Positions 29,549 through 35,851 of a stretch of 64,000 nt of DNA are shown here, in pieces. Both the position numbers and the translations under genes were made by a program. The notes beneath the pieces were generated by a model that did not search any database, had not been told where the DNA came from, and was given only the letters and a program-made list of their open reading frames with translations. The DNA lies in NCBI GenBank assembly GCA_003246455.1, contig QKAF01000009.1, positions 1 through 64,000 of the forward strand, written 5' to 3'. Numbering within the stretch: position 1 is the stretch's first letter; each line of letters begins with the position of its first letter. The DNA comes from Bacteroidota bacterium (GTDB lineage: Bacteria; Bacteroidota; Ignavibacteria; SZUA-365).

Positions 29549-29582
29549 GAAGGGCAGGCCCGGTGCCTGCCCTTCGTTTGTC
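29549..29582 (+). terminator. Terminator after the lipoprotein gene
   Basis: GAAGGGCAGGC pairs with GCCTGCCCTTC around a 5-base loop, followed by a modest T-rich stretch (CGTTTGT). It lies between the lipoprotein stop and the GT2-fusion start. Confidence 0.7.
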
Positions 29583-29598
29583 TCATCCGGAAACACCT

Positions 29599-31617
29599 AT
29601 GAGCACGTCCGCTTCCGCGGAGCAACGGCCCGCGATCTCGGTGGTCATCGTCAGTTACAATGTGCGCGATCTGCTCGAAAACTGCCTGCAGTCGCTGTAC
29701 ACCGCATTGACGGGAATCACCCACGAGGTGTACGTCGTTGACAACCGTTCCGATGACGGGACGGTCGAGATGGTTCGGCAGCGCTTTCCCCAGGCGACGC
29801 TCATCGCCAACGAGGAAAACCTCGGCTTTGCCCGCGCCAACAACCTCGCGCTGTCGCGTGCGAGCGGAGAGACCCTGCTTCTGCTGAATCCGGATACCCT
29901 CGTTCAGGAGGACACGATCGGCACAATGCTTCGTTTTTTCCGCGAAAACGAAGATGTCGGCATGGCCGGCTGTAAAATCATCAAGCCCGACGGCAGTCTG
30001 GAAGCGGCATCGCGGCGCAGTTTCCCGAGTCCGTGGGTGTCCTTCACGAAACTGAGCGGGCTCAGCACGCTGTTCCCTCGCTCCCCTCTCTTTGCCCGTT
30101 ACAACCTGACATACCTCAGCGAGGACGAGTCGTACGAAGTCGATGCCATCTCCGGCTCGTTCATGATGCTCCGGCGGGAGGTGTACGACACGATCGGCGG
30201 CCTCGATGAGTCGTACTTCATGTACGGGGAGGATCTGGACTGGTGCTTCCGCACGCAGCGCGCGGGCTGGAAGCTGTATTATGTCCACAGCACGAAAATC
30301 ATTCACTACGGCGGCGAGAGCACCAAGCGCAGCAGCATCGACGCGCACGCGGAATTCTACCGCGCGATGCAGGTGTTCGCGCGCAATAATCTCGGACTGT
30401 CGGCGTTCAGCCTCGGGGTCATTTCCATCGGCATCCGCATCCGGCTGGCCCTCGCGCGCTCGCGGCATCTCTTCACGGGCAGTCTCCCGCTCCTCGGCGA
30501 CGCGTTGACGACCGTCATCGCGATGCTCGCGGCCGAATTCATCCGTTTCGGCGGGTTTTTCCGCTTTCCGGAATACGCATACCCGACGGTGTATATCGCG
30601 GTGGTGCTGATCATGTGGCTCGGCCTGCTGCTCTCAGGCGCGTACACGCGGGAACAGTACCATATCGTCCGCTCGGGACTCGGCGTCCTGCTGGCGTTCC
30701 TGATTCTCTCGTCGCTGACCTTTTTCTTCAAGGACTGGGGATTCAGCCGCATGGTGGTCGTCATCGCCGGCGGGCTCAATCTGATACTCATTCCCGGACG
30801 CCGCATCCTCGGCTCCCTTCTTTCGCCGCGGCAGCGGGAACACCCGGTGACGGGAAGGCGAACGCTGCTCGTCGGGCTCAACGAACAGACGCTCGATGTG
30901 CTCGGGCGCCTCAAACGGCTCGATGAACAGAGCTATCATATCCTCGGCCTCATCGACCTGAGCCGCCGGCGCATCGGGGAGACCGTCGATTCGGTCCCCG
31001 TGCTCGGCAGCGTGCAGAACATCGGGAAGGTGATCGACGAGAACGACGTGACAGACATCATCATCGGTCCGGACACCCTCCCCTACTCGGAAATCCTTTC
31101 GATGATCGGCCGCACCCGCGGAAAAGCCGTTCATTACCGCATCGTCCCGCGAAGCATGGAATTCATCGTCGGAAAGACCAGCGTCGACCAGCTCAGCAGT
31201 GTCCCGCTGCTCGATTTCGAATACAATCTGATGAAAGGCTCGAATCGCCTGCTCAAGCGTACGCTCGATATCATTTTGTCTTTGCCCGCAGTCCTGTTAA
31301 TTTACCCGGTTGTATCCCTTCTATCCGGCCGAAAGAATCCGGGACCGATGGCGCGTTTCGTCCTGGGCCTCCCGCAGGTCCTCGCCGGACGCAAAAGCCT
31401 TGTGGGATACGACCCGGCGTATCTTCATGCGCCGAGCGACGTGTACCTGGGCAAACCGGGACTGACCGGGCTTGCGCAGCTGCGCTCGATAGAAAGGCTG
31501 ACCGAGGAGGAAGTTCTCGGGACGGTGATCCAGTACGTGCGGAACTACTCCGTGTTTCTCGACATCGAGATCCTCATCCGCACCCTGCTGATGTTCGTAG
31601 TTAGAAAAAACCGATAG
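29599..31617 (+). CDS. GT2 glycosyltransferase fused to a degenerate polyprenyl-phosphate phosphoglycosyltransferase
   Basis: 672 residues from ATG 29599; the track GTG start lies in the terminator. Residues about 10-240 form a GT2 domain of the rhamnosyltransferase type (ISVVIVSYNVRDLLENCLQ, the LLNPDT metal motif, a GEDLDWCFR base motif). About 295-410 hold four membrane spans and 420-530 a Rossmann-like CoA-binding-type region (TLLVGLNEQTLDVL) as in WbaP/Pgl-type initiators. The C-terminus starts like a monotopic PGT (LLKRTLDIILSLPAVLL near 552) and has LPQVLAGRKSLVG and GKPGLTGLAQL, but the intervening segment with the KFRSM and Asp-Glu catalytic dyad is absent. The GT2 part should be active; the PGT part is probably a dead scaffold or anchor. 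It precedes accA by 19 bases. Confidence 0.85.
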   Translation: MSTSASAEQRPAISVVIVSYNVRDLLENCLQSLYTALTGITHEVYVVDNRSDDGTVEMVRQRFPQATLIANEENLGFARANNLALSRASGETLLLLNPDTLVQEDTIGTMLRFFRENEDVGMAGCKIIKPDGSLEAASRRSFPSPWVSFTKLSGLSTLFPRSPLFARYNLTYLSEDESYEVDAISGSFMMLRREVYDTIGGLDESYFMYGEDLDWCFRTQRAGWKLYYVHSTKIIHYGGESTKRSSIDAHAEFYRAMQVFARNNLGLSAFSLGVISIGIRIRLALARSRHLFTGSLPLLGDALTTVIAMLAAEFIRFGGFFRFPEYAYPTVYIAVVLIMWLGLLLSGAYTREQYHIVRSGLGVLLAFLILSSLTFFFKDWGFSRMVVVIAGGLNLILIPGRRILGSLLSPRQREHPVTGRRTLLVGLNEQTLDVLGRLKRLDEQSYHILGLIDLSRRRIGETVDSVPVLGSVQNIGKVIDENDVTDIIIGPDTLPYSEILSMIGRTRGKAVHYRIVPRSMEFIVGKTSVDQLSSVPLLDFEYNLMKGSNRLLKRTLDIILSLPAVLLIYPVVSLLSGRKNPGPMARFVLGLPQVLAGRKSLVGYDPAYLHAPSDVYLGKPGLTGLAQLRSIERLTEEEVLGTVIQYVRNYSVFLDIEILIRTLLMFVVRKNR

Positions 31618-31636: not shown

Positions 31637-32587
31637 ATGGCCAAGACTGTGCTCGAATTTGAACGTCCGATCATAGAACTGGAACAGAAGATCGAGGAAA
31701 TGCGGCGTGTGATCGACGATCTGGACCTCCACGACGAAATCGACGCCCTGGAAAAGCGCGTCAATGATCTGCGCGCCTCCGTGTATGGGAATCTGACCCG
31801 CTGGCAGAAAGTGCAGCTCGCGAGGCATCCCGACCGCCCCTACACGCTCGACTATATCAAGCACATGACCACGGACTTCGTCGAACTGCACGGAGACCGT
31901 TTTCACGGCGACGATCATGCAATCGTCGGAGGCTTCGCGAAGCTTGACGGGAAGTCCGTCATGATCATCGGCCAGCAGAAAGGTCGCGACACGAAGAGCA
32001 ATCTGTTCCGGAACTTCGGCATGGCCAATCCGGAGGGATACCGCAAAGCCCTGCGCCTGATGGGACTGGCGGCGAAATTCAACCGTCCGGTGATCACGCT
32101 GATCGATACACCGGGTGCGTACCCCGGTCTCGAGGCGGAGGAACGCGGGCAGGCGGAAGCGATCGCACGCAACCTCTTCGAAATGACGCGGCTGCCTGTG
32201 CCCATCATCATCGTCATCATCGGCGAGGGCGCCTCGGGCGGGGCGCTCGGCATCGGAGTCGGGGACCGCGTCCTGATGCTCGAGAACACCTGGTACAATG
32301 TCATTTCCCCGGAATCCTGCTCGAGCATTCTCTGGCGCAGCTGGGACTACAAGGAACAGGCCGCCGAAGCCCTCAAACTCACGGCGCCCGATCTGCTCGC
32401 ACAGGGCATCATCGACCGCATCATCCCCGAACCGCTGGGCGGCGCGCATCGCAATCACGTCGAAGCGGCTCTGCTCCTGAAAACCGCGCTGATCGAGGAA
32501 CTCAAGCCCCTGCGGGCGATGAAACCCGATCAGCTTCGACGCAACAGAATCAAGAAATTCGGCCAGATGGGAGAATTCAACACCTGA
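31637..32587 (+). CDS. accA: Acetyl-CoA carboxylase carboxyltransferase alpha subunit
   Basis: 316 residues, the usual length. It starts with the family coiled N-terminus ([20 protein letters not shown]), followed by [49 protein letters not shown] and [15 protein letters not shown]. It transfers the carboxyl group from biotin to acetyl-CoA with the beta subunit AccD, which is not in the window. There is no zinc motif, as expected since that belongs to AccD. Its stop overlaps the thioesterase start as TGATG. Confidence 0.98.
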
Positions 32588-33000
32588 TGCACGCGGTTTC
32601 TCACGAAACGCGTATCCGCGTCCGTTACGCGGATACCGACCAGATGCAGATCGTCTACAACGGCAAGTATTTCGAGTACTTCGAAGTCGGCCGTACCGAG
32701 CTGATGCGCGCCCGGGGACTCACCTACGCCGAATTCGAGCACTCTGGGACGCGCCTGCCGCTGGTGGAGGCACATTGCCGCTTTCACCTCCCCGCGCGCT
32801 ACGACGACATCATTGTGATCCGCAGCGAAGTGCGCGACATCCCCCGGTCGACCATGCGTGTCGATTACGAAGTACGCCGCGAATCCGACGGGATATTGAT
32901 CGCCACCGGCTATACCACGCACGCATTCCTCGATATCGCCTCCCTGCGTCCGATCCGTCCTCCTGCCGTTTTTCTCGACACGCTCTGGCCGAATCGCTGA
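32587..33000 (+). CDS. Acyl-CoA thioesterase (4HBT/YbgC family)
   Basis: 137 residues. The hot-dog fold pattern is clear, with the catalytic segment RYADTDQMQIVYNGKYFEYFEVGRTEL near the start; the Asp in ADTDQ corresponds to the 4HBT catalytic residue. It hydrolyses acyl-CoA thioesters; the natural substrate is unknown. One-base overlap with accA indicates coupling, perhaps linking malonyl/acyl-CoA synthesis and turnover. Confidence 0.88.
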   Translation: MHAVSHETRIRVRYADTDQMQIVYNGKYFEYFEVGRTELMRARGLTYAEFEHSGTRLPLVEAHCRFHLPARYDDIIVIRSEVRDIPRSTMRVDYEVRRESDGILIATGYTTHAFLDIASLRPIRPPAVFLDTLWPNR

Positions 33001-33226: not shown

Positions 33227-35851
33227 ATGAAAGCCCTTTTCAGCATACTGTGTCTGCTCGTAAGTGCGATTGTCATCCCCCGGCCGGTCCAGGCTCAGAC
33301 CGGCTTACCCTCGCAGATCGAGATGCTCGCATCCCTCAGATCCGGCAACCCTCAGCGTGTGACTCATGCCCTCGAAAACATCAATCAGGATGCACTTGCG
33401 CAGGCCCTGTATGCCAATCTGTACCACGTTGCCGGATCTGAGCCCTCCTCCCGCCTCGAAGCCTCCGCCATCGCCAAAGCCCTCGGATTCGTACTGATCG
33501 TGGGGCTCGACGGCGAGCGCGCGGCGCTTTCACCGAACGAAGTGACGAATGCGATGCAGCGTCTGGAAACGCTGCTGCGGAACATCGATCCCGCCGTGAG
33601 CAATGTCGTGGAGGAATTCCAGTGGCGGGCAGTGGAACTGATGCAGTATGCCACGGCATACGACTTTTACCGCGCGGCACGCGGCGGCACGCTGCCGGAA
33701 GCGGAACAGAAGCTTGCGCTGTTTGCCGATAATGCCGTCCAGCAGCTGCACAACAGCTTCGTGGTTCGGAATAATCTTTCGATCAAACTCGCCGCCGCAG
33801 CCGGATATGCCGCGCTGATGCTTCGCGGCGAGACGGTGATCGGGACACAGCGCACACCCGCCGAATGGTTTGAAACCGCGTTCCTGCACATAGAAAGCAC
33901 CCTCTTCGAATACCAGGGGCAGAGCGACGGCTACCACGGATACAGTGAAGGTCCATGGTATTTCCGCTACGCGATGCAGAACCTGATTCCATTCTTCCTG
34001 GCGATCGACGTCGCCTTCGATGGCGGCGACTTCACCGTCGCGGGGAGATCCGCAGCGAGTCCCCTCCGTGACCCGAAATATCAGCGCCTGCTCGAATGGA
34101 TCGCAACATTGCGCATGCCCGACGGCATGCTTCCGCCGTTTGAGGACACCTACTTCCAGGCGTGGTTCCCGGAAGCGGCCGCGATCGCCCCGGTCGAACC
34201 CGCGCTTTCGTGGCTGGCATGGAACAACTTCGACGGCGCCGGATGCGCGATGAGTCCGTCGCGCCTCTCCGCCGAGCTTTCGCGTAATTTTGACAGCCGG
34301 GTCGAGTATCTCCTGAGCGAGGCGTCGCCGCGGACCTGCGCCGATCCCCTTCCCCGCAGCAGGATTCTCCCCGATGCCGGATACGCGGTGTTCCGCAGCG
34401 ATTGGACCGCCGATGCGACCTATTTTGCCCTGATCGGCAAAAACGGGATCGCCCGCACGCACCGCTCCCCGGTCGGCAGCGGCCACAAGCAGGCGAACGA
34501 AACCGCCTTCATTCTGCACGCAGGCGGAGAACTCCTCGCGATCGAACCGGGGTATCACAGCAGCAGCGCGCGCGGAGAAATCGTCTTCGGCCAGAACCAT
34601 AATATTCTTCTCGTGGACGGACGCGGTCCGGACAGCACGTCGTGGGGCACGTCGCTTTTCGGCGTCGACGCGTTCATGAGCGACACCCTCACTTCCCCCG
34701 ATGCGAATACGGTCACCATCCGTACCGCGTACCAGGGAGCCGACATCGAACGGCGCGCCACCGTCCTCGGCGGCGATTTCATCGTGCTCGCAGACCGTGC
34801 CCGCGCAGCGTTTCCGCACCGCTTCACCCACCAGGTGCACGGCAACGGCCGTGAGAATGCGGGCGGATACTCCGCGGATTTCGACGGACAGACCGCGCTG
34901 TGGACCCGCGGCGCGATGTCGCTTCACGCTCTCGTCGCGAGTGCGGACGGCATTCCTGCGATGGAAACCGTCTCGCGAACGCATGCGCCGGCCGGCGGAC
35001 GATTCGAGGAGCACAGCGCCCTTTACTCGTCACGCACGGGGAGCGACGTCCGCTTCCATACCGTACTCTGCGCCGCTCGCAGCGAAGAACCGGTTCAGAC
35101 GAACATCCTTCAGCAGGGCGACGGCATGACGGTTCTTACTGCCGTCCATGCGCAGCGGGAGCTTCTTTCCATTTTGAATGCGATCGGTGGCGATGTGTCT
35201 GCCGCAGTCCCCATGGCGGGGAATGTCCGCACCGATGCGATCGCATTGCATTGCGTCCTCAATTCTGCTGGCAGGCCGGATCTGTGGATGCTCGATGAAG
35301 GCAGCTTCATCCAGTCTGACGACCGGGTGGTGTTGTCTTCATCACTTACTGTCACGGCTGTCTTGGCGACGGCCGGCAATTCGATGCGGCTGACCGTGCG
35401 CGGCAATGCTCCGGCGACCCTTCGCCTGCACGTCCCGCGCACCATCGCCTCCGTCCGCGGCGATGTGGCTGGCTGGGACCTTTCGGGCAGCATGCTGCGC
35501 ATCGATCTCGCCACGGCGGACGCGGATCTCGTTATCGAGATGACGTCCACACTCACCGATGCGGATATGGCCGGGACCGTTCCTCTCCAGCCGCAGATTC
35601 ACTCCGCGTATCCGCAGCCCGCTGCCGCCGGCAGTGTCATCACCTGCATGGTCGAACTGCCTGCCGCATCCGGCGTGCAGATCAGTCTGCAGGATGCACT
35701 GGGCAGGCGCTGCAGCGAGGATCTGAGCGCGGAATACGCCCCGGGGACGCACGCGCTTCGGCTTCCGACGTCGCGGCTCGCACCGGGCGTCTACTTCCTC
35801 CGCCTGCAGATCGGCGCGGAAACCCGGATGCAGCGCCTGGTGATACGGTGA
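33227..35851 (+). CDS. Heparinase II/III-like secreted protein with type IX sorting domain
   Basis: 874 residues. Signal peptide (MKALFSILCLLVSAIVIPRPVQAQ). The middle resembles the alpha-toroid of polysaccharide lyases (FVVRNNLSIKLAAAAGYAAL; DGYHGYSEGPWYFRYAMQN), followed by the heparinase II/III-type beta-sandwich entry (THRSPVGSGHKQANETAFILHAGGELLAIEPGY). These suggest cleavage of an acidic polysaccharide, but the substrate is not deducible. The last 85 residues (AYPQPAAAGS, VQISLQDALGRR, LAPGVYFLRLQ, MQRLVIR) are a T9SS type A C-terminal domain, so the protein should be exported across the outer membrane and attached or released. No T9SS machinery gene lies in the window. It starts a group of cell-surface genes. 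Confidence 0.8.
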   Translation: MKALFSILCLLVSAIVIPRPVQAQTGLPSQIEMLASLRSGNPQRVTHALENINQDALAQALYANLYHVAGSEPSSRLEASAIAKALGFVLIVGLDGERAALSPNEVTNAMQRLETLLRNIDPAVSNVVEEFQWRAVELMQYATAYDFYRAARGGTLPEAEQKLALFADNAVQQLHNSFVVRNNLSIKLAAAAGYAALMLRGETVIGTQRTPAEWFETAFLHIESTLFEYQGQSDGYHGYSEGPWYFRYAMQNLIPFFLAIDVAFDGGDFTVAGRSAASPLRDPKYQRLLEWIATLRMPDGMLPPFEDTYFQAWFPEAAAIAPVEPALSWLAWNNFDGAGCAMSPSRLSAELSRNFDSRVEYLLSEASPRTCADPLPRSRILPDAGYAVFRSDWTADATYFALIGKNGIARTHRSPVGSGHKQANETAFILHAGGELLAIEPGYHSSSARGEIVFGQNHNILLVDGRGPDSTSWGTSLFGVDAFMSDTLTSPDANTVTIRTAYQGADIERRATVLGGDFIVLADRARAAFPHRFTHQVHGNGRENAGGYSADFDGQTALWTRGAMSLHALVASADGIPAMETVSRTHAPAGGRFEEHSALYSSRTGSDVRFHTVLCAARSEEPVQTNILQQGDGMTVLTAVHAQRELLSILNAIGGDVSAAVPMAGNVRTDAIALHCVLNSAGRPDLWMLDEGSFIQSDDRVVLSSSLTVTAVLATAGNSMRLTVRGNAPATLRLHVPRTIASVRGDVAGWDLSGSMLRIDLATADADLVIEMTSTLTDADMAGTVPLQPQIHSAYPQPAAAGSVITCMVELPAASGVQISLQDALGRRCSEDLSAEYAPGTHALRLPTSRLAPGVYFLRLQIGAETRMQRLVIR

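Follow-up and report, generated by a model that had tools for sequence, protein, structure and literature searches.

The fusion gene and its domains

The stretch of DNA analysed here (the window; 64,000 nucleotides from a Bacteroidota bacterium of the class Ignavibacteria) contains an open reading frame of 672 aa, uninterrupted by stops, at positions 29599-31617 of the forward strand, on which all domain coordinates below are given. Pfam matches and alignments divide its product into a GT2 in front and the remnant of a large monotopic phosphoglycosyltransferase (Lg-PGT) behind. The GT2 catalytic domain (29599-30378; residues 1-260) is WbbL/rhamnosyltransferase-like and carries the conserved NPD and ED motifs. 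Glycos_transf_2 (PF00535) matches at residues 14-199 (E 1.8e-23), and the PF00535 and PF13641 scores, both well above cut-off, place the domain in the GT2 sequence family, while the NCBIfam rhamnosyltransferase model TIGR01556 matches at 5.3e-17, under its cut-off, with homology over ~220 aa.

The second half follows the order of an Lg-PGT. A four-helix transmembrane (TM) bundle (30484-30789; approximately residues 296-397) is indicated by alignment with the N-terminal region of WbaP and with the active PGTs of the class, and by low-confidence AlphaFold models, in which four consecutive long helices occupy this position. It is followed by a Rossmann-like DUF (30841-31242; residues 415-548), which contains the hairpin region FIVGKTSVDQL and is recognised as CoA_binding_3 (PF13727; residues 361-517, E 1.9e-9, 38.2 bits against a cut-off of 25). 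The re-entrant membrane helix of the PGT, KRTLDIILSLPAVLLIYPVVSLLSGR (31249-31332; within residues 551-578), is assigned from the sequence rather than from geometry and aligns with the KRxxDI helix of active PGTs and of WbaP. After a short linker, the C-terminal PGT remnant (31369-31614; residues 591-672) retains LPQVLxGxxSLVG, GKPGLTG and the LDIEI helices; here Bac_transf (PF02397) matches at residues 593-666 (E 1.3e-10), covering only profile positions 96-177 of 179. The best relative in the PDB is WbaP, with residues 334-578 of the query aligned to 60-305 of WbaP and residues 594-665 to 390-468. TIGR03025 and TIGR03023 also match the protein in two stretches, far under their cut-offs. The two AlphaFold models, whose input was limited to five sequences, have pLDDT values of 42 and 49 (low confidence), with the DUF mostly at 60-86 across its first two thirds; a Foldseek search with the second model recovered 3nkl, Rex and WbaP (8t53) at low TM-scores. 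The PGT-like fold of the remnant is accordingly described here as predicted.

Gene neighbourhood

The order of genes in the window is pyrB, pyrC, a lipoprotein-like ORF, the fusion, accA and a thioesterase. accA (31637-32587, +) starts 19 bp downstream of the fusion and is overlapped by a 4HBT thioesterase gene (32587-33000, +; PF13279, 1.9e-19); both are neighbours conserved by synteny, and accA is no part of the enzyme. The usual order in the class is intact Lg-PGT, in some loci a DegT aminotransferase, a DPM1-like GT2, the fusion, accA, thioesterase, nadC and a MOP-type flippase, several of these names having been assigned by reading sequences, not by family search. Other classes show either fusion, accA, thioesterase and nadC, or fusion, an additional gene, PGT, DPM1-like GT2 and accA. 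The earlier note on this DNA had remarked that the gene precedes accA, and this adjacency indeed recurs at 41 of the 45 class loci and at many loci outside the class; it reflects an old conserved synteny. A functional link to accA was considered and dropped, as the fusion occurs without accA in six loci (L042, L044, L110 and L119-L121).

An intact Lg-PGT lies close upstream of the fusion in 33 of the 45 class loci, and all 34 PGT genes at these loci have KFRSM or KFRTM; of the 20 loci from other classes, 9 have an intact Lg-PGT nearby. The DPM1-like GT2 usually adjoins the fusion. The two intact PGTs of the window genome sit on other contigs (C18 and C107), so that any argument from the operon depends on relatives. 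At two loci of relatives (L094:10123-12606 and L105:9224-11725, both on the reverse strand) the fusion-adjacent intact Lg-PGT is itself fused behind a WecA/MraY-like Glycos_transf_4 domain (Pfam, on L094 only), so that one chain combines a polytopic with a monotopic PGT.

Two further features of the window were noted. A GC-rich inverted repeat (gggcaggcccggtgcctgccc) at 29550-29580, just upstream of the fusion, has a similar counterpart in the same place in one relative (L039) and was not listed by the terminator scan. The gene at 33227-35851 follows the fusion operon in near relatives as well. Its product is large and looks secreted; it gives a weak heparinase II/III-like match (E 3.8e-5, slightly under cut-off) and has a C-terminus that resembles a type IX secretion sorting domain.

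Excision of the catalytic core

The linker at 31333-31368 marks a deletion junction, located both by span lengths and by the gap in a profile-profile alignment. The segment that it replaces contains, in active PGTs, GPVFYxQxRxG, KFRSM, the DAE dyad and DPRVT; approximately 55 residues, including KFRSM, the Asp-Glu dyad and DPRVT, are absent from the PGT half of the fusion protein, which also lacks the GPRP arginine. From the lysine of KRxxD to VG the window protein spans 51 aa, where active PGTs from its class have 105-107 aa. The fusions of the class span 42-56 aa and those of other classes mostly 39-54 aa, with 28 aa in one and 61-67 aa in three (L124, L126 and L128). In three more (L131, L135 and L136) the span reaches 79-80 aa and a degenerate core segment is still there; these look like intermediates, and would imply that the fused PGT was originally complete.

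The remainder of the PGT is readily recognisable. A profile built from 38 C-terminal halves of fusions finds WbaP at E 2e-35, and hhalign aligns the same 38 halves with 33 active PGTs of the class at a probability of 100% (E 1.2e-45), a single large gap marking the core. The motifs, Pfam matches and WbaP alignment therefore bear out what the earlier note had read from the letters alone, namely a GT2 fused to a PGT that keeps KRTLDI, SLVG, KPGLTG, the membrane spans and a CoA-binding-like domain and misses the KFRSM/Asp-Glu stretch. The fusion protein retains the four-helix TM bundle and the KRxxD re-entrant helix of an Lg-PGT, but the catalytic core with Asp-Glu dyad, KFRSM and DPRVT, by which the PGT superfamily is defined, is wanting both here and in all homologues examined. 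The protein should therefore be kept out of the PGT class despite its PGT-like build.

Distribution and origin

The fusion is encoded in one piece in 54 of 61 close genomes and in fragments in two more (G001 and G013); the remaining five have no full-length match. In a sample of 396 genomes of the phylum, matches over most of the 664 profile positions come from 91 genomes of the class and from at least 50 outside it. The same architecture, which the earlier note had proposed to seek elsewhere, is thus present in other classes of the phylum too, and its conservation in dozens of genomes excludes chance. A tblastn search of plasmids gave no match covering 80% of the query, the best ones falling in the GT2 part. 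The core was inspected in 92 homologues drawn from these close and phylum genomes, 68 distinct sequences of the class and 24 full-length sequences of other classes; KFRSM, the dyad and DPRVT were found in none of them, the fusion to a core-less PGT was conserved throughout, and no relative with an intact core was seen. In the tree a split with support 1.0 separates the fused PGT halves of the class, as one clade, from the active PGTs, which makes a single origin the simplest reading.

A second kind of core-less PGT was observed in another family of the phylum (L165:4211-5542). It is a hexapeptide-repeat, nucleotidyltransferase-like protein, encoded close upstream of a GT2 gene, whose terminal Bac_transf remnant matches profile positions 84-174 at 28.9 bits and lacks both KFRSM and the dyad.

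Selection on the retained domains

Among the 68 class homologues, NPD (residues 97-99) is conserved at 99%, E211 and D212 at 100% and D214 at 99%, and K553 and D557 of the re-entrant helix at 97-99%. Conservation extends into the dead half, in which S383, R384, R402, G450, G470, V602, G603, Y646 and D655 are conserved at 99-100%, and the C-terminal half retains invariant residues over 38 divergent sequences. Comparison of the window with its closest relative (92% identity) gave dN/dS values of 0.015 (DUF), 0.040 (GT2), 0.067 (TM bundle) and 0.086 (PGT remnant), all approximate since dS is ~1 in this pair. Purifying selection acts strongly on each domain and none is drifting, the DUF being the most constrained portion of the dead half. 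A shell that is kept by selection in much of the phylum must therefore have a non-catalytic job. In one family of the class (L057-L060) the PGT remnant also lacks KRxxD and GLTG, and in L057 Bac_transf and CoA_binding_3 are no longer recognised by Pfam.

Reduced orthologues

Shorter orthologues of 370-428 aa (L142-L147) consist of the GT2 and a tail, without the membrane part. Five of the reduced tails match the DUF profile at 13.8-20.9 bits, compared with 5.1 for the best shuffled tail; the scores for Prevotella (9.9 bits), Parabacteroides (5.2) and L146 (4.1) are weak or individually non-significant. Taken as a set, the reduced tails match the fusion profile with a probability of 95.6% (E 1e-8). 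In the GT2 tree the reduced forms branch off at several points within the full-length ones, in a clade of 102 sequences (support 0.785) that also includes three other short GT2s. The membrane parts were probably lost repeatedly, as judged from a single-gene tree of moderate support, whilst the DUF remnant tends to persist with the GT2. One reduced form (L142/L167) still precedes accA; the Parabacteroides form (L176:6007-7173) lies between recR and a GNAT gene.

The earlier note had suggested a dead initiator acting as membrane scaffold for the GT2. The dead initiator and its conserved shell stand, but the role of scaffold is too narrow, as the DUF is the most constrained part of the dead half and a remnant of it outlives the membrane parts in reduced relatives.

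A proposed role and its alternatives

On present evidence the protein is probably an active GT2 that lengthens a lipid-linked glycan and is docked, made oligomeric and perhaps tuned by nucleotides through its retired initiator. We infer GT2 activity, the identity of the acceptor, and docking, dimerising and sensing roles as follows. Early in the history of the phylum, a WbbL-like GT2 would have been joined to a complete Lg-PGT; the catalytic segment would have been lost next, with the TM bundle, DUF, re-entrant helix and interfacial C-terminal helices retained. The GT2, the catalytic motifs of which are near-invariant among the 68 homologues, would act at the inner face of the cytoplasmic membrane, adding one sugar to a polyprenyl-linked glycan; its acceptor would be a lipid-linked sugar that the neighbouring active PGT plausibly makes. 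The retained shell would hold the GT2 against the membrane, close to the Und-PP-sugar at its surface, and the DUF would make the fusion oligomeric, presumably a dimer. In Salmonella WbaP the TM bundle and DUF form the dimer, UMP, UDP and UTP stabilise the DUF on its own while UDP-Gal destabilises it, and UMP inhibits the full-length enzyme at ~4 uM (PMC10942596); by analogy, uridine nucleotides may tune the fusion via its DUF. Docking is not essential everywhere, because several lineages do without the membrane half.

The dead half could instead be an assembly partner, forming a heterodimer via TM bundle and DUF with the active Lg-PGT of the operon so that the Und-PP-sugar passes directly to the GT2 in a two-enzyme metabolon, or so that the active PGT is regulated. 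Lg-PGTs dimerise via exactly the parts that are retained (PMC10942596), an intact Lg-PGT lies within a few genes of the fusion at the class and other loci counted above, and in Myxococcus EpsZ/EpsW a partner at the DUF interface sets Lg-PGT activity (PMC12802240). However, in the window genome the active PGTs do not adjoin the fusion, reduced orthologues without a TM bundle exist and homodimerisation is equally possible, and we regard this reading as rather unlikely. It has a more speculative extension, in which the active Lg-PGT, the DPM1-like polyprenyl-P-sugar synthase and the GT2-pseudo-PGT would constitute a phylum-ancestral initiation complex, the dead PGT pairing with the active one and a single heteromeric membrane assembly attaching both the first and the second sugar of a conserved lipid-linked glycan. 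Such a complex, itself a doubtful proposition, would be a candidate for making the core that protein O-glycans of Bacteroidota share, the machinery of which was still unidentified according to a 2025 review (PMC12871550); the module is put forward as an O-glycan candidate speculatively, by its phylum-wide distribution only.

Erosion offers a different account, in which the C-terminal half is a passive anchor, an accidental legacy of the fusion that is slowly decaying and the details of which are functionless. The disappearance of PGT motifs from one family of the class and the independent trimming of this half in several other lineages are what such decay would produce, but dN/dS values of 0.015-0.086 across its parts, its invariant residues and its length of some 380 residues, which a bare anchor would not need, make this improbable. 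That the remnant might retain PGT or phosphotransfer activity via unrecognised residues is suggested by the conservation of SLVG, GKPGLTG and the C-terminal helices; with the dyad, KFRSM and DPRVT gone in all members examined, the GPRP arginine generally lost and an intact PGT usually next door, this has very little probability. Least credible is the idea that sequencing or assembly removed the core from a normal bifunctional GT2-PGT, a danger of which the earlier note had warned together with that of intact-core relatives: the same gap recurs in dozens of genomes that were assembled independently, several on a single contig, no version with an intact core was found, and this idea can be dismissed. 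An active GT2 carried by a retired initiator is the reading preferred here.

Pseudo-enzymes that arise by excision of a whole catalytic core, with the remaining shell under selection, are uncommon, and none was found described among monotopic PGTs in the openly searchable literature. The TM bundle, DUF and re-entrant helix are the least understood parts of active Lg-PGTs, and the fusion family is therefore a natural deletion experiment on their usefulness independent of catalysis, in which the reduction series across the phylum ranks the parts of the shell, the DUF remnant lasting longest beside the GT2. The fusion also marks a conserved glycan operon in Bacteroidota, and Bac_transf matches in genomes of this phylum may represent dead initiators.

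Comparison with known systems

With the Lg-PGTs WbaP and WcaJ (TIGR03025/PF02397 and PF13727) the fusion shares the TM bundle, DUF, re-entrant helix and C-terminal helices, but it differs in the GT2 in front and in the loss of the stretch that holds the whole catalytic centre. Like a Bi-PGT, it has a second enzyme joined to a PGT; a Bi-PGT, however, is defined by a domain fused to an intact PGT catalytic domain (PMC10942596), whereas here the fusion is present and the core destroyed. WbbL-like GT2 rhamnosyltransferases (TIGR01556 and others) share the GT-A fold, the NPD and GEDLD motifs and the homologous ~220 aa, but the TIGR01556 model describes a GT2 of ~280 aa without an Lg-PGT part and the fusion scores far under its cut-off. 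A Parabacteroides GT2 encoded beside recR (WP_005856215.1) and its Prevotella relative (L175) fall in the same GT2 clade as the fusions and carry a tail of ~95 aa at the position of the DUF, with the TM bundle and PGT part absent; homology of the tail to the DUF is borderline for the Prevotella protein and not significant alone for that of Parabacteroides. FpgA of Flavobacterium psychrophilum was considered as a possible characterised relative (PMC4293000). No published description of a core-less PGT fusion was found in the openly searchable literature. Lg-PGTs, Bi-PGTs and GT2s are already known; the core-less, phylum-wide form of the fusion appears to be new.
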